The notes beneath the pieces were generated by a model. The model saw only the letters and a list, made by a program, of their open reading frames with translations, was not told the origin of the DNA and ran no database searches. The position numbers were made by a program, and so were the translations under genes. A DNA stretch of 64,000 nt from Acidimicrobiia bacterium (GTDB lineage Bacteria; Actinomycetota; Acidimicrobiia; Acidimicrobiales; AC-14): the NCBI GenBank assembly GCA_023264995.1, contig JAHFUR010000009.1:62001-126000 (forward strand). The letters run 5' to 3'. This document shows, piece by piece, positions 10,164-26,996 of the stretch; within the stretch, counting starts at the first letter, position 1; every line of letters starts with the position of its first letter.

Positions 10164-10167
<4 letters not shown>
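9298..10167 (+). CDS. Membrane-anchored HtrA-like serine protease without PDZ
   Basis: 289 residues from the ATG at 9298; an ATG at 9289 and a TTG at 9283 are in frame. No Shine-Dalgarno is visible and TATTGT lies at 9281-9286, so a near-leaderless transcript is possible. One transmembrane segment (about residues 36-52) is followed by a trypsin-like domain with His in SLHVV, Asp in DHDIAVL and Ser in NPGNSGGPLL. The protein ends soon after the catalytic domain, so the usual PDZ is missing. The stop overlaps the moxR start (ATGA), tying it to the AAA/VWA operon. Confidence 0.9.
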
Positions 10168-11182
<1,015 letters not shown>

Positions 11183-11204
<22 letters not shown>

Positions 11205-12079
11205 CGGCCGACCGGATCCTGCGCCGGCTCGATTGGCACGTGGTCCGTCGCCTGGAAGGGCGGTTGCAGGGGAACTACCGCACGGTGCTGCGCGGCCACG
11301 GTACCGACTTTCGCGATGTCCGCGAGTACGTCACCGGCGACGACGTCCGTCACATCGACTGGAACGTCACCGCCCGCATGGACGAGATGTACGTCCGGGA
11401 GTACGCGGAGGACCGCGAGCTCACGGTATGGCTCCTGCTCGATCATTCCCCGTCGATGGGCTTCGGGCCGGTGGACCGGACGAAGGAGCACGTGCTGTGC
11501 GAGGTGGCGGCCACTGTTGCCCAGCTCTTCGTCCAGGGTGGCAACCGCGTGGGCGCCATGGTCTACGACAACCAGCAGGTCACGACCATCCCGCCCCGCC
11601 AGGGCCGCGACCAGGTCCTGAGGCTGATCGACGAGCTCCTCCGCCCGATCGAAGGGCGAGGAGGGGTCACCGACCTACGGACGCTGCTCGATAGTGCCGC
11701 TCGGGTGGTCCGCCGGCGCTCGCTCGTCGTGCTCGTCTCCGACTTCATCAGCGAGCCCGGTTGGGAGCGGTCACTGCTGCGCCTCACCGAGCGTCACGAG
11801 GTGGTGGCCGTACGCCTCGTCGACCGGCGCGAGTACGAGCTTCCCGACACCGGCCTCATCGTCGTCGAGGATGCCGAGACCGGTGAACAGCTCATGGTCG
11901 ACACGAGCGACCCGGAGTTCCGTCGCCGGCTGCGGGCGGCCGGGGAGGCTCGCGAGCAGGCGGTACGGGATGCGGCCCGCCGAGCCGGCGTCGACTTGCA
12001 TCTCGTGTCCACCGACGACGACCTGGTCAACGCGTTCGTACGCATCGTGGCGGCGCGCAAGGCGCAGCGACGCTCGTGA
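11183..12079 (+). CDS. DUF58 (VWA-like) protein
   Basis: 298 residues. The DUF58 signature lies at about residues 47-60 (VRHIDWNVTARMDEMYVREY), followed by a VWA-like fold with a MIDAS-type DHSPSMGFG and a SDFISEPGWERSLLRL segment. DUF58 proteins are standard partners of MoxR. No membrane segment is obvious. It starts inside moxR and overlaps the next gene by 4 bp, so the module is tightly coupled. Confidence 0.93.
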
Positions 12080-13065
12080 CGTTCGGCGCGCCGTGGGTGC
12101 TGGTGCTGCTGCTGGGCATCCCGGGCCTGGTGGCGGCCTACGTCCGGTCGCGCCGCCGGCGTTCGCAGCGCTCGGCCGCCCTCTCGGCCCAGGGCCTGGT
12201 GATGACCGGGGCGTCGCCTCGGATGCGGGTGCGGCGCCACGTGCCGTTCGGCCTGTTCGCGGCGGCGCTGACGTTCATGGTCGTCGGGATGGCCCGCCCC
12301 ATGACCACGGTGAAGACGCCCAAACGGGAGGGCACGGTGATCCTCGCCGTCGACGTGTCGAACAGCATGAAGGCCGACGACGTGAAGCCGACCCGCATCG
12401 AGGCGGCCAAGACCGCGGCCAAGGCCTTCGTCGACCGCCAGCCCCCGGCGGTGAAGATCGGCGTCGTGGCCTTCGGCGACGGAGCGGTGGTGGTGCAGGC
12501 GCCGACGACCGGGCACCTCGAGGTGACCAAGGCCATCGACCGGCTCTCCATCGGCGGCGGGACGTCGCTCGGGCAGGGGCTGGTTGCCGCCCTCGGCGCC
12601 ATCGCCGGCAAGCCGGTCGCCATCGACCCGGAGGCGCTGGCCAGTGACTCGGCCCAGGTCGACATCGGGTACTTCGGATCCGGCACCGTCGTGCTGTTCT
12701 CCGACGGCGAGGAGACGAGCCGGCCCGACCCGGTCTCCGTCGCCGAGGTGGCCTCGGTGGCCGGCGTCCACATCCACACCATTGGCGTCGGCACGGAGGC
12801 AGGCACGGTCGTACAGGTCAACGGGTTCAGCGTGGCCACTGCCCTCGACGCCGACCTGCTGCAACAGGTGGCCGAGACCACCGACGGCTCGTACTACCAG
12901 GGCGACGACGCGGCCGGACTGGCCGCCATCTCGAAGACGATCGACCTCCGCTTCAAGCTCGTGTCCCGCCACTCCGAGGTCAGCGGGCTGTTCTCCGCCG
13001 CCGGGGCGGTGCTCCTGGTCGCCGGGGCGCTGCTGTCGGTCCTCTGGTTCGGACGGGTGGTCTGA
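12076..13065 (+). CDS. VWA-domain membrane protein (BatA-like)
   Basis: 329 residues from a GTG. The protein has an N-terminal membrane helix (PWVLVLLLGIPGLVAAYV), a second one near residue 60, a VWA domain with the MIDAS motif DVSNSMKADD, and a C-terminal helix (AGAVLLVAGALLSVLWF). This BatA-type layout places the VWA domain on the outer face of the membrane. It may be one of the clients or partners of the MoxR ATPase encoded upstream. Confidence 0.92.
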   Translation: MTFGAPWVLVLLLGIPGLVAAYVRSRRRRSQRSAALSAQGLVMTGASPRMRVRRHVPFGLFAAALTFMVVGMARPMTTVKTPKREGTVILAVDVSNSMKADDVKPTRIEAAKTAAKAFVDRQPPAVKIGVVAFGDGAVVVQAPTTGHLEVTKAIDRLSIGGGTSLGQGLVAALGAIAGKPVAIDPEALASDSAQVDIGYFGSGTVVLFSDGEETSRPDPVSVAEVASVAGVHIHTIGVGTEAGTVVQVNGFSVATALDADLLQQVAETTDGSYYQGDDAAGLAAISKTIDLRFKLVSRHSEVSGLFSAAGAVLLVAGALLSVLWFGRVV

Positions 13066-13068
13066 GCC

Positions 13069-14160
13069 ATGACCTTCACCTGGCCGTTCGCCCTCCTGCT
13101 CGTCCTGGCCGTGCCGCTCGTCCTTGGCGTGTACGCCCTGGCCATGCGCCGCCGGCGTAAGCAGGCCATCAGCTACTCCAGCGTGGCGTTGCTCCGCTCG
13201 GTGCTACCGCCCCGCTCGAAGTGGCGGCGCCACCTCCCCGTCGCCCTTCTCCTGTCGAGCATCGGCGTCCTGTCGGTGGCATCGGCCCGGCCTCAGCTTG
13301 TCCGCGATGTGGCGACGGCCCGTACGTCGATCATCCTGGCGCTCGACGTGTCGCGGTCGATGTGCGCCACCGACGTGGCCCCGAACCGGATCACCGTGGC
13401 CCAGCAGGCGGCGCGCGACTTCGTCGAGAACCAGCCCTCGGGGATGCGGGTCGGCCTCGTCGTGTTCTCCGGCTTCGCGCAGCTGGCGGTGGCGCCGACG
13501 AACGACCGGAAGGCCCTGATCAGCGCCATCGACGGGCTCACCACCTCCCGGGGCACGGCCATCGGCGCGGCCATGCTCAAGGCGCTCGACGCCATCGCCG
13601 AGATCAACGGCGACGTGAAGCCGGTTGGTGACGTGGTCACCGGCGGGGCGCCGGCGCCGGGCGCCCAGGCCAAGCCGAACGGGGACTTCGTCCCCGACAT
13701 CATCGTGCTCCTGACCGACGGGGCCAACACCCGGGGGATCGCCCCGCTCGACGCCGTCCCGTACGCCGTCGAGCGGCGGGTGCGGGTCTACACGATCGGG
13801 TTCGGCACGGCCCAGCCGGCGTCGCTGGTGTGCTCGGCGCAGCAGCTCGGCGGCGACCAGCGGGGCGGCTTCGGTGGCGGTGGCGGCGGCTTTGGCGGCG
13901 GCGGCGGCTTCGGCGGCGGCGGCGGTGCCTCCCCGCTCCGGGCCGACAACGAGACGCTGAAGAAGGTGGCGGAGAGCACGGGTGCGTCGGCCTACAGCGC
14001 CGAGGACGCGCAGCAGTTGAAGAAGGTATTTGCCGACCTGCCCCGTGACGTGACCGTCCAGAAGCAACCCCGGGAGGTGACGGCGCCGTTCGTGGCCCTG
14101 GGCGCCATCCTGGCCGCAGCGGCGATCGGCGCGTCGATCCGGTGGAGCGCCTACCCGTAG
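13069..14160 (+). CDS. VWA-domain membrane protein (BatB-like) with Gly-rich insert
   Basis: 363 residues, three bases after the preceding VWA gene and a clear paralogue. An N-terminal helix (FALLLVLAVPLVLGVYAL), a second helix, a MIDAS motif DVSRSMCATD and a C-terminal helix are visible. An insertion of about 28 residues near residue 262-288, made almost only of Gly and Phe, lies between the VWA core and the last strand-helix; it is coded by GGC/GGT repeats. Probably forms a heteromeric complex with the preceding protein. Confidence 0.9.
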   Translation: MTFTWPFALLLVLAVPLVLGVYALAMRRRRKQAISYSSVALLRSVLPPRSKWRRHLPVALLLSSIGVLSVASARPQLVRDVATARTSIILALDVSRSMCATDVAPNRITVAQQAARDFVENQPSGMRVGLVVFSGFAQLAVAPTNDRKALISAIDGLTTSRGTAIGAAMLKALDAIAEINGDVKPVGDVVTGGAPAPGAQAKPNGDFVPDIIVLLTDGANTRGIAPLDAVPYAVERRVRVYTIGFGTAQPASLVCSAQQLGGDQRGGFGGGGGGFGGGGGFGGGGGASPLRADNETLKKVAESTGASAYSAEDAQQLKKVFADLPRDVTVQKQPREVTAPFVALGAILAAAAIGASIRWSAYP

Positions 14161-14167
14161 CCGGCAG

Positions 14168-15922
14168 CTACCCGGGGTAGCGGTCGTGGATGATCCGCAC
14201 GAGACGGTCGCGGCTCTCGGCGACCCGGCCGCCCGTACGCACGCCGGCCTCGACCTCGGCGACCTCAGCCCCCAGCGGCGGGTCGCCGAGCACGTCGACG
14301 ATCCAGCGCGAGATGTCGCGATGCTCGCAATGGTGGGCGATGACGGCGTCGTCACAGACCCGCAGTACGTACTCCAGCTCCTGGATGCTGCCGGCTGTCG
14401 CGCCCGTCGCGTTGTCCCAGTCGGACCGGAAGTAGAACCGCCGTTCCTGGGGGAGCCGCCCGAGGGAGTACTTGTGCCAGTGGCGGAGATGAGGCGTTTC
14501 CCGCTGGGCGATGGTGAAGACCACCGGCGGCTTGGTCTGGGTACGGTCGACGAGGACCGCCTGTCCTGGGTGGGTGTGGCGGACAAGGGCACCCGCGCGT
14601 TTCTCCGTCACGCCACCGGTGCGGGCCACGAGTTCGATGATGGGCTCGAGGTCCTCGCGTCCGGGGAGGGCCAGCAAGACGTCAGCACCGTCAAGCGCGG
14701 CCATGCTCAGCTCCTGGGGCTGATGAGTGACCAGGCAGTAGCCGGTGACGCCGGCGTCGAGGACACTGCTGTGGGGCGCGTCGCGCCCAAGGCTGCTCTG
14801 GGCCTCGTCCACGACGACCCAGTGCGGGAGGCCCGTTTGTGCCCGCAGGACTTCGACGGCGGGGAGGGCGACCCGGAGGTACTCGACCCGTTCGGGTTCG
14901 GGCACGCCGGAGAGGTCGACCACGACGCTCCCGAACCGGTGGCGGAGGAGGCCGACCAGCTCGTCGGGGGCCGGCAGCCGACCACCGCCGCCGACGACGA
15001 GCGCGCCGCGGAGCTGGCCGAGCCCGACGTGGTCCCCCTCGGGGTCGCTCACGAGGACGGAGTAGCCGAGGCCGATCAGGCGCTCGGCTACCAGGCCGGC
15101 CACGTAGGACTTGCCGCGGCCCGAGGATCCGGCGATGACCATGTTGAGCTGCGATGCCGGGACCGAGGCCGGACTGCCGTCGGCGAGGGGCCCGAGGTTG
15201 AGGCGCCAGCGCTTCGGGTGCACCCGCTGCCGACCGGACACCACGTCGCCCCGGAGGAACGCCGTCACGCCCTCGCCATTGGCCCGGTCGAGCGTGACGT
15301 CGGCGTGGGCCTTGAGCGCGTCGACGGCATTGGCGACGGCGACACCGAGCTCGGCGACGTCGAGGAGCGAATGGTCGTTCTCGGCATCGCCGATCGCGAT
15401 GGTGTTGTGGTGTGAGATCCCCAGGTCTCCCAGGCCGTTGTACAACCCGGAGCCCTTGGAGACGCCGGTCGGGAGGATCATGAGGGAGCCGCGGTTGCGG
15501 ATGAGCTGGCACTCGAGCTCGAGCCGGCGTAGCTCGGTGAGGATGGCTGGCTCGTCGGCGGCCTCGGCGGCGAGCAGCACCTGGCCGCGGCGGAACGAGA
15601 TCCTCCGCTGGGCGAGGGCGGCGTCGAGCTGGCGGGGCACAGGGGCCACCAGGGCGCGCTCGACGCCCCGGTGGCAGACCACGGCCCCGTTCTCGGCCAC
15701 GATCAGGTCGAAATGGCGGTCGACCTCGGGGAACGAGCGCCGCAGCTCGACGAGGATCCGCCCGGTCACGAGGACCACTGAACACCCGGCGGCGCGGGTC
15801 TCAGCCAGGGCGTCGAGCACGACGGCTGTGGGCCGGTCTCGATCGGTCAGCGTGCCGTCGTAGTCGAAGGCGATGGCATGGAAGTGGCCCGGTGGTGTCG
15901 GAGCGGGACCGTCATTTGCCAC
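14168..15922 (-). CDS. HAD-IIB phosphatase fused to HerA/VirB4-like ATPase
   Basis: 584 residues from the GTG at 15922, which has AAAGGGG upstream; the frame is open beyond this but looks non-coding. Residues 15-225 form a Cof-type HAD hydrolase with FDYDGT (Asp20, Asp22), VTGR, Lys156 and IGDAENDHSLLD. From about residue 255 a P-loop ATPase follows, with GSSGRGKS at 265-272 and WVVVDEAQ at about 368-375, then LVTHQPQEL like a HerA/DUF87 domain. HAD-IIB enzymes dephosphorylate sugar phosphates or related molecules; the ATPase type usually pumps DNA or remodels complexes. The joint function is unknown. It converges on the VWA operon. Confidence 0.85.
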   Translation of the reverse strand: MANDGPAPTPPGHFHAIAFDYDGTLTDRDRPTAVVLDALAETRAAGCSVVLVTGRILVELRRSFPEVDRHFDLIVAENGAVVCHRGVERALVAPVPRQLDAALAQRRISFRRGQVLLAAEAADEPAILTELRRLELECQLIRNRGSLMILPTGVSKGSGLYNGLGDLGISHHNTIAIGDAENDHSLLDVAELGVAVANAVDALKAHADVTLDRANGEGVTAFLRGDVVSGRQRVHPKRWRLNLGPLADGSPASVPASQLNMVIAGSSGRGKSYVAGLVAERLIGLGYSVLVSDPEGDHVGLGQLRGALVVGGGGRLPAPDELVGLLRHRFGSVVVDLSGVPEPERVEYLRVALPAVEVLRAQTGLPHWVVVDEAQSSLGRDAPHSSVLDAGVTGYCLVTHQPQELSMAALDGADVLLALPGREDLEPIIELVARTGGVTEKRAGALVRHTHPGQAVLVDRTQTKPPVVFTIAQRETPHLRHWHKYSLGRLPQERRFYFRSDWDNATGATAGSIQELEYVLRVCDDAVIAHHCEHRDISRWIVDVLGDPPLGAEVAEVEAGVRTGGRVAESRDRLVRIIHDRYPG

Positions 15923-16223
15923 AGGGAACCCCTTTGTCCGAAGCGGGCTTTCCGATAGCCGACCCAAGTCGCCACGTACGCGTCCGGGCAGGCCGTCTGC
16001 CGCACCGCCGCCGCCCGCCCAGGGTAGTGGCGCCCGGCCGTCAGCGCCCGCCCTCCGTCGTCGACGAAACGCGAGCAGCCGTACCGTGGCTCCACCCGGT
16101 GGTGCCGTCTGCTTGGGAGCATACGCGTTGAGCACGCCGGCACCTGCGCTCGTCCTGGTGATGCCCGATGGCCGGCCCGTGGCGCGCCCGGCCTGATCGC
16201 CCGTGCCGGTAGCGTCGGCAGAA
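15923..16223. other. 301-bp intergenic region
   Basis: Lies between the divergently transcribed HAD-ATPase gene and the response-regulator stub. It must hold the HAD-ATPase promoter. I see no convincing gene, tRNA, terminator or repeat in it; short open frames here have no recognisable product. Confidence 0.5.
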
Positions 16224-16283: not shown

Positions 16284-17059
16284 GCGGCATCCGCCGGGTC
16301 GAGGAGATCTGGGGTACGGCCATCGGGGTCGACATCCGCGGCGACGTCGCGGCCGCGGTCGTCGATGGCGTCTTCACCTGGTTCGCTCGGGTCGACGACC
16401 TCTTCAGCACCTGGCGCAACGACACCGAGATCGTGCGCATCGCCCGGGGAGACCTGGCGGTCGTCGACAGCAGCGCCGAGGTGCGGACCGTCCTCGACCT
16501 CTGCGCGGCCATGTCGGTGGCGACGGGTGGGGCGTTCGACATCGCCGCCCGGGCGGCGCTCCCGCCCCCGCACCCGCCGGGCTGGTGCCCCCTCGACCCT
16601 TCCGCGCTGGTCAAGGGGTGGGCCCTCGACCGGGCCGCCGATCGCCTGCGGGCCGCCGGTGCGACGCGGTTCTGCCTCAACGCCGGGGGCGACGTGCGCG
16701 TGGGTGACGGCCCAGCGCCAGGGGAGGCGTGGCGGGTCGGCGTCCAGCACCCCCGGGAGCGGGACCGGGTGGCCGCCGTGCTGGCCGTGACCGGCGCCGG
16801 CGTGGCCACGTCGGGCACCTACGAGCGCGGGGACCACATCGTCGACCCCCGGACCGGCCGGCCAGCGGGCGGCCTCGTCTCGGTCACGGTGGTGGCCCCG
16901 GAGCTGGCGGTCGCCGACGCCTACTCGACCGCCGTCCTGGCTCTCGGCCGGGATGGCCTCGACTGGCTCGGGGACCACCCGGCCGTCGACGCCATGGCCA
17001 TCACCCCCGACGACCGCGTCTTCACGACTGCGGGCTTCGATCGCTGGCGCGCCCAGTAA
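16280..17059 (+). CDS. apbE: ApbE-family FAD:protein FMN transferase, abnormal 5' end
   Basis: About 259 residues if read from CTG 16280. ApbE motifs are clear: LVKGWALDRAAD, NAGGDVRVGDG, GVATSGTYERGDHIVDP and the Mg-binding ADAYSTAVLALG. ApbE links FMN to Thr/Ser of membrane flavoproteins. The first standard start in this frame is GTG 16433, which would remove the conserved VEEIWGTAIGVDI...DDLFSTWRNDTEI segment. So the gene uses a CTG start, is read by a frameshift from the upstream stub, or is truncated. It lies upstream of the PNPOx-like flavin protein gene. Confidence 0.8.
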   Translation: MSGIRRVEEIWGTAIGVDIRGDVAAAVVDGVFTWFARVDDLFSTWRNDTEIVRIARGDLAVVDSSAEVRTVLDLCAAMSVATGGAFDIAARAALPPPHPPGWCPLDPSALVKGWALDRAADRLRAAGATRFCLNAGGDVRVGDGPAPGEAWRVGVQHPRERDRVAAVLAVTGAGVATSGTYERGDHIVDPRTGRPAGGLVSVTVVAPELAVADAYSTAVLALGRDGLDWLGDHPAVDAMAITPDDRVFTTAGFDRWRAQ

Positions 17060-21950: not shown

Positions 21951-22053
21951 TGCCTTGGTCGGCGAGTGATGGGCGCGGCCGGCAGGATCGATGTGATAGT
22001 TGGCGTGGCGCATCCCTGGGCGATGTGCCTCGACCAGGCGGAGGAGGCGGTTC

Positions 22054-24765
22054 ATGAGCCCGAGCGACGAACGGCCACCGGCGCACTGGGCCTGCGACGT
22101 GGTCGTCGCCGACGGTGGCACCGTCCGCGTCCGGCCGGTGCAGAGCTCGGATGGGCCGGGACTTGTGGCGTTCCATGCCCGGCTGTCGCCGGAATCGGTG
22201 TACTTCCGGTTCTTCGGTGGCCACCCCAGCCTGACCGATGCCGAGGTGGCCCGGTTCACCGTCGTCGACTATGTCGACCGCGTGGCGTTGGTTGCCGAGC
22301 TCGGCCACCGGCTTGTCGGCGTGGCCCGCTACGACCGGTTGCCCTCGGACCCGCAGCGGGCCGAAGTCGCCTTCGTGGTGAGTGACGAGCACCAAGGCCG
22401 GGGGATAGGCACCGTGCTGCTCGAGCACCTCGCCGCGGCGGCACGCGAGCGCGGCGTCACCACGTTCCTGGCCGAGACGCTGGTGGCCAATGCCAAGATG
22501 CTCGACGTCTTCGAGCAGGCGGGTTTCGAGGAGCGCACCCGTCTCGACGAGGGGACCGTGATCGTCGAGCTCACCATCGAGCCGACCGATCGGAGCCGCG
22601 CTGCCATGGAGGAACGCGAGCGGCGGGCCGAGTCGCGTTCGGTCTCGCGGCTGCTGTCGCCCCGGTCGGTGGCTGTGATCGGCGCCAGCCGCAAGCCGTC
22701 CACCATCGGTCACCAGGTGTTGCGCAACCTGCTCGACGGCGGCTTCGCCGGGCCGGTGTACCCCGTCAACCCGAGCGCGTCGCACGTGGCCAGCGTCAAG
22801 GCGTACCCGACGGTGCTCGACGTCCCCGGCGATGTCGACCTGGCGGTCGTCGCTGTCCCCGCGGCTGCGGTGGCCGAAGTGGTGGCCGACTGCGCCGAGA
22901 AGGGGGTGGTGGGCCTCGTCGTGCTCTCCGCCGGGTTCGGTGAGACCGGCCCGGCCGGGGCGACCGCACAGACCGAGCTGCGTGACCTCATCCGGCGCAA
23001 CGGCATGCGATTGGTCGGGCCCAACTGCATCGGCGTGGCCAACACCGCCGTCGGTCTCAACGCCACGTTCTCTCCGTACGCCCCTTTGCCGGGCCGCATC
23101 GCCATGCAGTCGCAGTCGGGTGCCCTCGGTATCGCCATCCTCGAACGATCGGCCCGGATCGGGCTCGGGGTCTCGAGCTTCGTGTCCGTCGGCAACAAGG
23201 CCGACGTCAGCGGCAACGACCTGCTCCAGTACTGGGAGACCGACCCTGGCACCGACGTCGTGCTGCTCTACCTCGAGTCGTTCGGGAACCCCCGGAAGTT
23301 CGGCCGCATCGCCCGGCGGGTCTCGCGCCGGAAGCCGATCGTGGCCGTCAAAAGCGGGCGGTCGGCGGCCGGGATCCGGGCCGCGTCGTCGCACACGGCG
23401 GCGATGGCCAGTTCCGACGTGGCCGTCGATGCCCTGTTCCGCCAGACGGGGGTGGTCCGGGTCGACACGCTCGACGAGATGTTCGACATGGCGCTCGTCC
23501 TGTCGTCGCAGCCCCTGCCCGGCGGCCGGAGGATCGCCATCGTCGGGAACTCGGGCGGCCCGGGGATCCTCGCCACCGACGCCTGCGAAGGCGCCGGCCT
23601 GGAGGTCCCGGAGCTGTCAGCCTCGACGCAGGCCGCGCTTCGGGCCGTCGTCGATGTCAACGGGGCGGTCGCCAACCCGGTGGACCTGGTGGCCGGCGCG
23701 ACCCCCGCCACCTACGAGGACGCGCTCCGGGTCGTCCTGGCCGACGATTGCGTTGATGCCGTGATCGCCATCAATACGGCGACGTTCGCCGCACCCTCTG
23801 CGGACGTGGCGGGCGTGCTGCGCCGAGTGGCGACCGGCGCCGGCAAGCCGATCGTGGGCACGTTCCTGGCCTGGCCGGAGATGGCGCCGCTCCTGGGCGG
23901 CGACACCGGGGAGGCCAGGGTGCCCGCGTTCTCGTCGCCGGAGCCGGCGGCGCGCGCCCTGGCCCGTGCCGCGGACTACGCGGAGTGGCGCCGGCGCCCA
24001 CCGGGTGGTGTCCCGCCGCTCGACGGGTTCGACACCGATCGGGCGCAGGGGCTCGTGGACGCGTGCCTCACGGCCAACCCGGCCGGCGGTTGGCTAGCCC
24101 CGGAGGAGATCGCCGGGCTCCTGGGCGCGGCCGGCATCCCGATGCTCGAGACGGTGACAGTGACAACCGGTGCCAGGGCGGGCGACGAGGCCGAGCGGCT
24201 GGGCTTCCCAGTGGCCCTCAAGGCAATCGGGCCGGATCTAGTCCACAAGAGCGATGTCGGCGGGGTCAGGCTGGGCCTGCGGTCGGCGGGCGAGGTGGCC
24301 GAGGCCTACCGGGCCATGGCCGCCGACGTGGGCGGGGCCATGACCGGTGCCGTGGTCCAGCGCATGGCCCGGCCGGGCGTCGAGACGATCGTCGGAGTGG
24401 TGCACGACCCGCTGTTCGGTCCCCTCGTCATGTTCGGCTTGGGCGGCGTGGCCACCGAGCTCCTGGGCGACCGGGCCTTCCGGATCCTGCCCCTGACCGA
24501 CGTCGATGCCGCCGAGCTGGTCCGCGGCCTCCGTTCGTCACCCCTCCTCTTCGGGTACCGCGGAGCACCCGCGGTTGCCGCCGGCGCCGTGGAGGACGTC
24601 CTCCAGCGCGTCGCCTGGTTGGCTGACGCCGTGCCTGAGCTGGCGGAGGTCGAGTTCAACCCGGCGATCGCTTCGGCCGACGGTGTGGAGGTGGTCGATG
24701 CGCGGGTGCGGGTGGCGCCGGTCGGCCGCCTCCCTGACGAACACCTGCGGCGCATGAGCGGATGA
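22054..24765 (+). CDS. GNAT acetyltransferase fused to NDP-forming acyl-CoA ligase
   Basis: 903 residues from an ATG with GGAGGAGGCGG upstream. Residues 15-185 form a GNAT domain with the acetyl-CoA loop SDEHQGRGIGTVLL. The rest is an ADP-forming acetyl-CoA synthetase: CoA-binding VAVIGASRKPSTIGHQ, ligase domains with the phospho-His motif SHTAAM, and ATP-grasp with LKAIGPDLVHKSDVGG. The layout matches Pat-type protein acetyltransferases, which modify lysines (often of acetyl-CoA synthetase). Whether the ligase half is active cannot be told. It is adjacent to a LysR gene. Confidence 0.93.
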   Translation: MSPSDERPPAHWACDVVVADGGTVRVRPVQSSDGPGLVAFHARLSPESVYFRFFGGHPSLTDAEVARFTVVDYVDRVALVAELGHRLVGVARYDRLPSDPQRAEVAFVVSDEHQGRGIGTVLLEHLAAAARERGVTTFLAETLVANAKMLDVFEQAGFEERTRLDEGTVIVELTIEPTDRSRAAMEERERRAESRSVSRLLSPRSVAVIGASRKPSTIGHQVLRNLLDGGFAGPVYPVNPSASHVASVKAYPTVLDVPGDVDLAVVAVPAAAVAEVVADCAEKGVVGLVVLSAGFGETGPAGATAQTELRDLIRRNGMRLVGPNCIGVANTAVGLNATFSPYAPLPGRIAMQSQSGALGIAILERSARIGLGVSSFVSVGNKADVSGNDLLQYWETDPGTDVVLLYLESFGNPRKFGRIARRVSRRKPIVAVKSGRSAAGIRAASSHTAAMASSDVAVDALFRQTGVVRVDTLDEMFDMALVLSSQPLPGGRRIAIVGNSGGPGILATDACEGAGLEVPELSASTQAALRAVVDVNGAVANPVDLVAGATPATYEDALRVVLADDCVDAVIAINTATFAAPSADVAGVLRRVATGAGKPIVGTFLAWPEMAPLLGGDTGEARVPAFSSPEPAARALARAADYAEWRRRPPGGVPPLDGFDTDRAQGLVDACLTANPAGGWLAPEEIAGLLGAAGIPMLETVTVTTGARAGDEAERLGFPVALKAIGPDLVHKSDVGGVRLGLRSAGEVAEAYRAMAADVGGAMTGAVVQRMARPGVETIVGVVHDPLFGPLVMFGLGGVATELLGDRAFRILPLTDVDAAELVRGLRSSPLLFGYRGAPAVAAGAVEDVLQRVAWLADAVPELAEVEFNPAIASADGVEVVDARVRVAPVGRLPDEHLRRMSG

Positions 24766-24773
24766 CGGATCGC

Positions 24774-26264
24774 TCAGGGGCCTGGCCACTCCTCGGGCAG
24801 CACCTTCACCCCCGGCACGTAGACGTCGAACTGACCGACGCGCTCGTGCTGGCCGGCCCGCCCGGTCGAGGCCAGGAAGCGCTCCAGGCGGACCTGCTCG
24901 GCGGAACCGGCGATCAGCACATAGCCCGGACGGGGGCTTGACCGGACCTGGTCGTTGAACGGCCGCCATCGGACCACGTCCAGGGGTGAGACGATGATCC
25001 GCTCGCGGCCATCGAAGTCGAGCCGGTAGGCGATGTGGTAGGGAGCGAACGCCCGGTCGACCCCCTGCCGGCGGAGCGCGTCGAGCACCGGGGTGAGCGG
25101 GGCACGCGGGCTCAGCGGATCCTCGACCGTGAGCGTGTGGATGCCGACGATCGACAGGGTGGCGACCAGGACGACGCCGACCACCTGACGGGCGGGCGTC
25201 GCGAGAGCCCGGGCCAGGAGCAGGGCGATCACGGGGGAGAGCAGGTAGAGGTACCGCGGCTCGCCGGCGTAGAACGACGCCGGCGAGATCGCGAACACGA
25301 AGGGGTAGGCGACGGCGGCGACGAGGAGGAGCCTCAGGCGCTCCGGCCGCTTCCAGAGCAGGAGCCCGAACACGGCGAGGAGGGCGACGTACGCAGCGAT
25401 ACCGACCAGCGGGCCCGGGTACCACTTCTCGGCATAGGGGATCCGCAACCCGAGGGCCTCGGGCAGCAGCGGCCCGAAGAAGTGCTGGAGGTGGGACAGG
25501 TAGGTGTTGTGGGGGGCGGCGATGTCTGACCGCAGCGCGGCCCAGCCATGGGTGGCGGTCCAGCACAGCCACGGTGCGGCGCCGGCGACCGCGCCGGCCA
25601 GCACGAGGTGCGCCCTCCGGAGCAGGCCGGGCGCCTCGACCGCCAGCCAGACCAGGGCGGGGGCGGCCACGAACACGATCTGTGGAGTGGCCCACCATCC
25701 GACGCCGGCCGCGAACCCGAGCCACAACAGGTCGGGCCTCGTCGCCCGCTCGCGTAGCCGCAGGACGGCAAGGAGGATGGCGCACGACGCCAGGAGGGCC
25801 GTCGAGTAGAAGCCGTAGGCCCGGGTGGACCGCAGGACGAAGAAGGTCGGACCGAGGAGGAACAGCACAGCGGCCACCGGCGCTTGCCGGTCCCCGAGGG
25901 TGCGCCGGCCTATGCGCCAGACCAGCCAGGCCGAGGCCAAGGTCGACAGCATGGGCACGACCTTCACGGCCACCCTGCTCGGGCCCAGAAGGGCGAAGAC
26001 GACGGCTGTGGCGATGGACTCCTGTGACCCGCCGTAGGTCTGTCCCCAGAAGAAGACCGAGACGTGGCCGTGCAGGGCGTGGCGGGCCATGAGCCCCGAT
26101 ACCGCTTCGTCCATGTCGACGGCGCCGAGCCCTGCCGACAGGATCCAGATCCGCAGCGCCACGGCGACCACGATGCCGAGGCCGACGAGCGCGAGGGTGA
26201 CGGTCGACCAGTTCCGGCCGCAAACGTCGTCGGCCGTACCCGTCGCCGTGTCCGCCTGTCGCAC
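24774..26264 (-). CDS. GT-C type membrane glycosyltransferase (family 39-like)
   Basis: 496 residues from a GTG. About ten hydrophobic helices follow a first one at residues 20-40; the first outside loop holds VDMDEAVSG, matching the Asp-Glu motif of GT-C enzymes that use polyprenyl-phosphate sugars. A soluble C-terminal domain of about 100 residues follows. Predicted to transfer a sugar on the outer face of the membrane; donor and acceptor are unknown. Convergent with the GNAT/ligase gene by eight bases. Confidence 0.83.
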   Translation of the reverse strand: MRQADTATGTADDVCGRNWSTVTLALVGLGIVVAVALRIWILSAGLGAVDMDEAVSGLMARHALHGHVSVFFWGQTYGGSQESIATAVVFALLGPSRVAVKVVPMLSTLASAWLVWRIGRRTLGDRQAPVAAVLFLLGPTFFVLRSTRAYGFYSTALLASCAILLAVLRLRERATRPDLLWLGFAAGVGWWATPQIVFVAAPALVWLAVEAPGLLRRAHLVLAGAVAGAAPWLCWTATHGWAALRSDIAAPHNTYLSHLQHFFGPLLPEALGLRIPYAEKWYPGPLVGIAAYVALLAVFGLLLWKRPERLRLLLVAAVAYPFVFAISPASFYAGEPRYLYLLSPVIALLLARALATPARQVVGVVLVATLSIVGIHTLTVEDPLSPRAPLTPVLDALRRQGVDRAFAPYHIAYRLDFDGRERIIVSPLDVVRWRPFNDQVRSSPRPGYVLIAGSAEQVRLERFLASTGRAGQHERVGQFDVYVPGVKVLPEEWPGP

Positions 26265-26306
26265 GGCGCACAGCCTCTCACCCGCCGACGAAGGGGGCCG
26301 ATTGGC

Positions 26307-26324
26307 GGGACGTTCGTCCCTGGG
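26307..26324. promoter_or_regulatory. DosR/DevR-like palindrome, site E
   Basis: GGGACGTTCGTCCCTGGG. The core GGGAC-GTTC-GTCCC is a perfect palindrome with the four-base spacer of the DosR box, and 14 of 16 positions match the local consensus. It sits between the divergent GT-C gene (42 bases) and the universal stress protein gene (45 bases). Confidence 0.65.
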
Positions 26325-26369
26325 AGCGCGGGCCCGAGCCGGCGAAACTCGGGGCAGGAGGTGTTGCAG

Positions 26370-26996
26370 ATGTCCGGAGACGTGGTAGCGATCCTGTTTG
26401 GTGTGGTGATCTGGTTGGCGACGGGCGTGGTCCTGTCGGTGGTGATGGGCCGCCGCGGTCATTACGGGGCCGGCTGGGGTGTCCTCGGCGCCATGCTCGG
26501 GCCCTTCGCGGTGGTGGCGGCGCTGGCCACGGTCCGGCTCGAGGGCGAGGAGAGGCCGTCCGTCGTCGTGGCCGGCGCCAGCCACGGCGGCCCGGTCGAC
26601 GTGCTGGTCGGGATCGACGGCTCGCCCGAATGTGCCCTGGCGGTGGAGCGGGCGGTCACGATGCTCGGGCCGCGGCTCGGCCGCCTGACCCTGGCCACGG
26701 CGGTCGCCTACGACGACGTCGCCCCGCACACCACGGAGATCTTGCGGGAGCTGGACCGCCGGGCCCGCCTGAGCGGCGTGGCTGAGGTCGGCCAGGAGGT
26801 GCTCCACGGGCAGCCGGCCCGGGCGCTCGCCGAGTTTGCCACCGGTCACGGCTACGACCTGCTCGTCGTCGGGACCCGGGGCCGAGGGATGGCGAAGGCG
26901 ATCATGGGCAGCACCGCCAGCGCGCTTGCCGCCGGGTGCGCGGTGCCGGTGCTCATGGTCGGGGACGAGGCCCGCATGGGTCGCGCCGCCGCGTAG
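26370..26996 (+). CDS. Universal stress protein with N-terminal membrane segments
   Basis: 208 residues from an ATG with CAGGAGG upstream. Two hydrophobic segments (about residues 4-25 and 33-53) precede a UspA domain of about 130 residues: DVLVGIDGSPECALAVERA, LLVVGTRGRGMAKAIMGSTA with the G-x2-G-x9-G-S/T ATP-binding pattern, and CAVPVLMVG. Membrane-anchored Usp proteins are unusual. DosR-type regulons in other actinobacteria contain several Usp genes. Confidence 0.88.
   Translation: MSGDVVAILFGVVIWLATGVVLSVVMGRRGHYGAGWGVLGAMLGPFAVVAALATVRLEGEERPSVVVAGASHGGPVDVLVGIDGSPECALAVERAVTMLGPRLGRLTLATAVAYDDVAPHTTEILRELDRRARLSGVAEVGQEVLHGQPARALAEFATGHGYDLLVVGTRGRGMAKAIMGSTASALAAGCAVPVLMVGDEARMGRAAA

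Follow-up and report, generated by a model that had tools for sequence, protein, structure and literature searches.

We find that a single gene in the window (the whole 64,000-nucleotide stretch of Acidimicrobiia bacterium DNA that was analysed) encodes a protein of three domains: a HAD-IIB phosphatase, a HerA-fold P-loop ATPase and a C-terminal OrfY/DUF5752 unit. Our analyses confirm that this fusion is genuine and beyond chance. Each of the domains was already known and the combination is present in databases, where it is listed as "HAD-IIB family hydrolase"; no description of the fusion or of DUF5752 was found in the literature searched, and the database label has concealed a protein found in a dozen phyla. 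We tentatively propose that the fusion is a stress-associated phosphatase that acts on small molecules (probably sugar phosphates), is controlled in an ATP-dependent way and is tied to trehalose/alpha-glucan metabolism, a reading that we prefer while giving it somewhat less than even odds.

A three-domain protein in one reading frame

The fusion gene is a single minus-strand open reading frame for 584 residues at positions 14168-15922, with a GTG start at 15922 and its stop at 14168, and a candidate ribosome-binding site read from the sequence (AAAGGGG, minus strand, 15929-15935) lies 6 nt upstream of the GTG. The frame is open further upstream, up to 16978; since this extension overlaps the ApbE gene on the opposite strand and homologues of the protein start near residue 11-14, position 15922 is the sensible start. 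The genome carries one copy of the gene. All three domains are found in fixed order in 85/85 aligned homologues from about 12 phyla, and the catalytic residues of both active sites are 96-100% conserved in this 85-row alignment. An AlphaFold2 model built from the same alignment reached a pLDDT of 93.3, and its pTM of 0.88 suggests that the packing of the domains is predicted with confidence. An earlier note on this DNA had described one frame that joins a HAD-IIB domain with all four motifs to a HerA-like ATPase with intact Walker A and B, and this description holds across the family; its two-domain makeup missed the OrfY/DUF5752 unit at the end of the chain.

The HAD-IIB phosphatase domain

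Residues 13-231 (15230-15886, minus strand) form a HAD-IIB phosphatase domain, as seen from matches to Pfam Hydrolase_3 (E 7.5e-29) and to the HAD-IIB model TIGR01484 (62.7 bits, above the cut-off of 41.8). The nearest solved fold is PH1421 (1wr8), with a VIA Z score of 27.8 over 218 aligned residues at 2.4 Å. The narrower "Cof-type" assignment of the earlier note did not hold, as the score to the Cof model TIGR00099 is 98.7 bits and falls short of the curated cut-off of 137, and the trehalose-6-phosphate phosphatase (T6PP) model TIGR00685 is absent among the 25 best matches listed for the protein (the last of them at E 0.012). Catalytic positions of motifs I-IV, including the two Asp of motif I, are kept in 84-85 of the 85 homologues. 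Motif I is DYDGT (D20 and D22; 15851-15865), with D, D and T in 84/85 rows and a gap in the remaining one, and motif II is TGR (T53-R55; 15758-15766), assigned from conservation in the 85-row alignment. Both K156 of motif III (15455-15457) and all six positions of motif IV, GDAEND (178-183; 15374-15391), are invariant (85/85; all four motifs on the minus strand).

A minimal HerA-fold ATPase without motor features

The central part of the protein (residues 236-482; 14477-15217, minus strand) is a minimal HerA-fold P-loop ATPase domain that matches the structure of Sulfolobus solfataricus HerA (4d2i) with a Z score of 23.4 at 2.6 Å over 237 residues, and modelling the C-terminal half of the fusion on its own again gave a HerA fold. 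By sequence, the Pfam DUF87 match is barely over the gathering threshold (25.0 vs 23.2). Three motifs, all on the minus strand, are well conserved: Walker A, GSSGRGKS (265-272; 15107-15130), with G265, G270 and K271 in 85/85 homologues; the HerA-type DPxGD/E motif, DPEGD (293-297; 15032-15046), with D293 and E295 in 85/85 and G296 and D297 in 84/85; and Walker B, VVVDEA (369-374; 14801-14818), with the catalytic E373 in 85/85 and D372 in 82/85. The domain thus combines a HerA-type RecA fold with the Walker A, DPxGE/D and Walker B motifs that define HerA/DUF87 ATPases, and the ATPase folds nearest to it are those of the motors HerA, VirB4 and FtsK. A plain sugar kinase, named in the earlier note as a possible refutation, is ruled out by the HerA fold, and no kinase is among the nearest structures listed.

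Several features of HerA are missing from this domain. A comparison with genuine HerA sequences shows fewer residues between Walker B and the sensor of the fusion, where the "GRKFG" segment is missing and where no Arg is conserved across the 85 fusion sequences; this is the region in which HerA carries its trans-arginine finger. The THQP segment that the earlier note had pointed out is present in this protein but is no feature of the family, as the sensor Gln (in the "THQP" / "xQRP" segment) is a Q in only 10/85 homologues. Also the HAS barrel of HerA is absent, and the N-terminus is the HAD domain instead. The missing finger segment, the unconserved sensor Gln and the absent HAS barrel make a case against a canonical ring translocase and weaken the idea of a pump or DNA motor that had been raised before; the loss of the arginine finger is seen from the alignment, and some form of oligomer or ring would be compatible with it.

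The C-terminal OrfY/DUF5752 unit

The chain ends in a unit of about residues 490-584 (about 492-584 at 14171-14449, minus strand) that is entered through a conserved R-H-x-x-K-Y motif (480-485; 14468-14485, minus strand), with R480 in 85/85, H481 in 83, K484 in 82 and Y485 in 84 of the homologues. The family profile matches Thermoproteus tenax OrfY (4cso) at E 3.3e-13, with one alignment to each half and hence to both of its repeats, and matches stand-alone DUF5752 proteins in hhalign with 98% probability (E 2.4e-13). In a single-sequence Pfam search DUF5752 scores below the cut-off (11.2 vs 23), so the unit normally goes unannotated. Among the VIA structure matches listed, which were HAD and HerA folds, 4cso did not appear, and the assignment to OrfY is the one indicated by sequence profiles.

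Distribution of the fusion

A scan of genome contigs retrieved 255 relatives, the best 80 of which span about 12 phyla. The search of other genomes of the phylum that the earlier note had proposed gave strict-threshold matches in 9/296, the own genome included, and matches at this threshold were found in 9/369 genomes of the class that includes the L071 genome and in 22/198 genomes of the phylum to which the Nitrospira genome L067 belongs. The full fusion was found in 0/2 same-genus and 0/7 same-family genomes sampled. Absence from close relatives, which had been suggested as a sign of an assembly error, was therefore observed, but the inference from it fails because the fusion is widespread in other phyla; an assembly error is excluded by the presence of the same fusion on many independent contigs and in single-contig genomes. 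The tree of fusion homologues intermixes phyla, and the patchy occurrence fits an accessory gene that is frequently moved or lost, with the caveat that a tree alone is no proof of transfer. Cargo of phages or mobile elements was likewise considered and rejected, as every full-length copy found lies on a large replicon typed as non-mobilizable, and phages gave none.

Some copies depart from the common form. In two Nitrospirota loci (L219 and L220), the fusion is divided over two overlapping frames; the break lies near DPEGD in one locus and between the HAD and ATPase domains in the other, and would be a frameshift, an assembly error or a natural split. Two genomes (G850 and G824) carry two divergent fusion paralogues each (L175/L190 and L179/L192), with identities to the query used of about 52% or more vs 32%, and another one (G130; L143 and L144) has a second ATPase-OrfY copy with in-frame stops that is apparently decayed. 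In Mycobacterium sp. E2733 (L017:3721-7725), the fusion frame apparently has an extra N-terminal segment, and the gene comes after KaiC (NCBIfam match) and a KaiB-like gene (recognised by eye).

Gene neighbourhoods point to stress and metabolism

Neighbourhoods differ among the loci examined and no universal operon partner of the fusion was found in them. Genes in unannotated loci were called with a home-made composition score, which probably introduced some false genes or left some out. Universal stress proteins (USPs) are encoded at most 6 kb from the fusion in 15/80 loci (the best 80 of 255), a density far above the background of roughly one per 420 kb, which was summed over 60 genomes of one phylum while the fusion loci come from many phyla. 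Other genes at fusion loci encode BON, TerC, Hsp20 and histidine kinase/response regulator proteins. Annotated proteobacterial and cyanobacterial copies lie near genes for Dps, manganese catalase, hemerythrin, PRC-barrel, CBS, USP, GT4 and PQQ dehydrogenase, and on the flanks of a Rhodococcus copy there are genes for several USPs, a nitroreductase and a response regulator (named by eye except for the USPs). The window itself carries genes for ApbE, two PPOX-type flavoproteins, a Zn-ADH, a cupredoxin, a GNAT/CoA-ligase protein and a USP.

Directly around the fusion gene in the window, a VWA gene ending at 14160 is convergent and the ApbE gene at 16433 is divergent. The former belongs to an aerotolerance-type cluster of MoxR-like, DUF58-like and VWA/BatA genes (10164-14160, plus strand) that converges on the fusion gene; the VWA/BatA gene alone was checked with Pfam, and the MoxR-like and DUF58-like genes were recognised by eye. 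Further away, a GNAT acetyltransferase is fused to an acyl-CoA ligase/ATP-grasp protein (22000-24762, plus strand), and the USP gene lies close to it at 26064-26996 (about 26.6 kb). In six Rokubacteria/Methylomirabilota loci (L053, L059, L060, L069, L072 and L082), genes for a LigD-type ligase and a 3'-phosphoesterase adjoin the fusion on the opposite strand.

A suggestive link to trehalose and alpha-glucan genes

Stand-alone DUF5752 genes were found in 11/149 genomes sampled in the own phylum, and in 11/11 of these (L105-L115) a TreT gene adjoins DUF5752, with OtsA and OtsB adjacent in many. Similar genes lie beside a subset of the fusions: in locus L086, TreZ and a glycogen debranching enzyme (GDE) are encoded directly upstream on the same strand, and at five Nitrospirota loci a TreZ-GDE pair is found within about 1-9 kb of the fusion. 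This pair occurs in 0/20 control regions of the same genome set, one of which has another GDE type; the Nitrospirota loci are related to each other, so these cases amount to few independent events. Elsewhere, a DUF5752-TreT pair lies about 4 kb from the fusion (L045), an Aminobacter copy has OtsA, GDE and GT4 genes beside it, and a Caballeronia copy has two GT4 genes directly upstream. Trehalose genes are absent near most fusion loci, including that of the window, and we consider the tie of fusion loci to trehalose/alpha-glucan genes suggestive. The idea that the fusion serves as the missing trehalose-6-phosphate (T6P) phosphatase of its own genome is weakened, since a canonical OtsB is already encoded there on another contig, beside an OtsA-like gene.

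Proposed function and alternative explanations

In the mechanism that we propose, the HAD-IIB domain would remove phosphate from a sugar phosphate or a comparable small metabolite through the Asp-phosphate chemistry typical of such enzymes, with D20 as the likely nucleophile and D22 as the likely acid/base. The HerA-fold domain would bind and probably hydrolyse ATP and, because it lacks the trans-arginine finger, sensor Gln and HAS barrel of HerA, may serve not as a ring-shaped translocase but as a switch or regulator that works through ATP sensing, conformational gating or assembly. The OrfY/DUF5752 unit could be a partner- or ligand-binding module that connects the protein to trehalose/alpha-glucan enzymes. 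A more far-reaching idea is that the HerA fold of a DNA motor has been converted into an ATP-driven switch within one molecule, with DUF5752/OrfY as a shared plug-in to trehalose/alpha-glucan synthesis; it is speculative and we consider it doubtful.

Two other explanations assign a different task to the P-loop. A bifunctional enzyme would use it as a kinase and the HAD domain for the reverse step on one small molecule, by a logic like that of PFK-2/FBPase-2; the two invariant active sites in fixed order on each chain would suit this arrangement and the missing ring features would leave the P-loop free for another use, but an invariant glutamate in Walker B and the DPxGD motif are marks of HerA-type hydrolases, and with no kinase among the nearest structural neighbours listed for this HerA fold we regard the explanation as unlikely. 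Alternatively, the protein might be a hexameric HerA-like motor or pump that moves DNA or a large assembly by hydrolysing ATP, with the HAD domain acting on an end or a ligand. Such a motor would agree with the HerA, VirB4 and FtsK folds nearest to the ATPase, with its intact Walker A/B and DPEGD motifs and with the LigD-type ligase genes that adjoin the fusion in the six Rokubacteria/Methylomirabilota loci and in L086, yet this adjacency falls almost wholly within one clade, the HAD-IIB cap type suits small molecules, and the missing finger segment without a conserved Arg, the sensor Gln in only 10/85 and the absent HAS barrel make it quite unlikely.

Regulation and defence were considered as well. 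The PDB label of OrfY (4cso) is "transcription factor", which could make the fusion a DNA-binding metabolic sensor that regulates via its third domain; this label is the depositors' own wording and looks doubtful, as DUF5752 is tied to TreT operons and a comparative-genomics paper refers to OrfY-like as an enzymatic domain that is uncharacterised (PMC5906684), so that we judge this role very unlikely. A defence protein with a HAD effector on a HerA-type scaffold, like SIR2-HerA or DUF4297-HerA, would be in line with the anti-phage complexes among the nearest HerA structures, a weak PADLOC match to mad8 and the patchy distribution. However, the neighbours of the fusion are stress and metabolic genes and not defence genes, and most of the PADLOC hits are to generic helicases or sigma-54 regulators; a defence island around the fusion thus found no support from either, and we consider this role highly improbable.

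For the ATP-controlled phosphatase that we prefer, the OrfY/DUF5752 unit together with its trehalose genes is the best functional lead, and DUF5752/OrfY, a domain of unknown function with a solved structure, gains a pathway context from the TreT and OtsAB gene clusters. The architecture of the fusion suggests a use of the HerA fold other than as a motor. If the ATP-switch reading is true, the protein would represent a new and widespread class of metabolic enzymes that are gated by ATP and take part in the stress physiology of bacteria.

Comparison with known systems

The fusion shares the core, cap fold and four motifs of HAD-IIB phosphatases such as PH1421 (1wr8), TA0175 and the sucrose-6-phosphate and trehalose-6-phosphate phosphatases. 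These known enzymes are single-domain proteins or are joined to synthases, whereas the HAD domain of the fusion has an ATPase and an OrfY unit as its partners and falls outside the cut-offs of the Cof and T6PP models. With HerA/DUF87 ATPases and the minimal packaging ATPase B204 it has in common the RecA-like core and the Walker A, DPxGE/D and Walker B motifs. It differs from HerA in having neither HAS barrel nor arginine-finger segment, in its unconserved sensor Gln and in the far shorter insert that separates DPEGD from Walker B. The conserved F-x-F, A-x-x-L, H, D-F-x-x-W and D-x-x-L pattern of T. tenax OrfY (4cso) and Pfam DUF5752 recurs in the fusion, but OrfY consists of two tandem units while the fusion ends in one, and the DUF5752 that adjoins TreT as a stand-alone gene is here the end of a chain.

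Two characterised systems may serve as analogies for the fusion, not as tests of its function. A non-canonical HAD phosphatase of S. acidocaldarius is reported to be active on T6P and other sugar phosphates (PMC7688234), and the bifunctional TPS/TPP of T. tenax (TPSP) has a fused phosphatase under complex-dependent control (PMC3634074). The likeness to TPSP would lie in a HAD phosphatase that is joined to a second module and controlled by complex formation in the synthesis of a compatible solute; unlike TPSP, the fusion has no glycosyltransferase domain, and its partner module is an ATPase.
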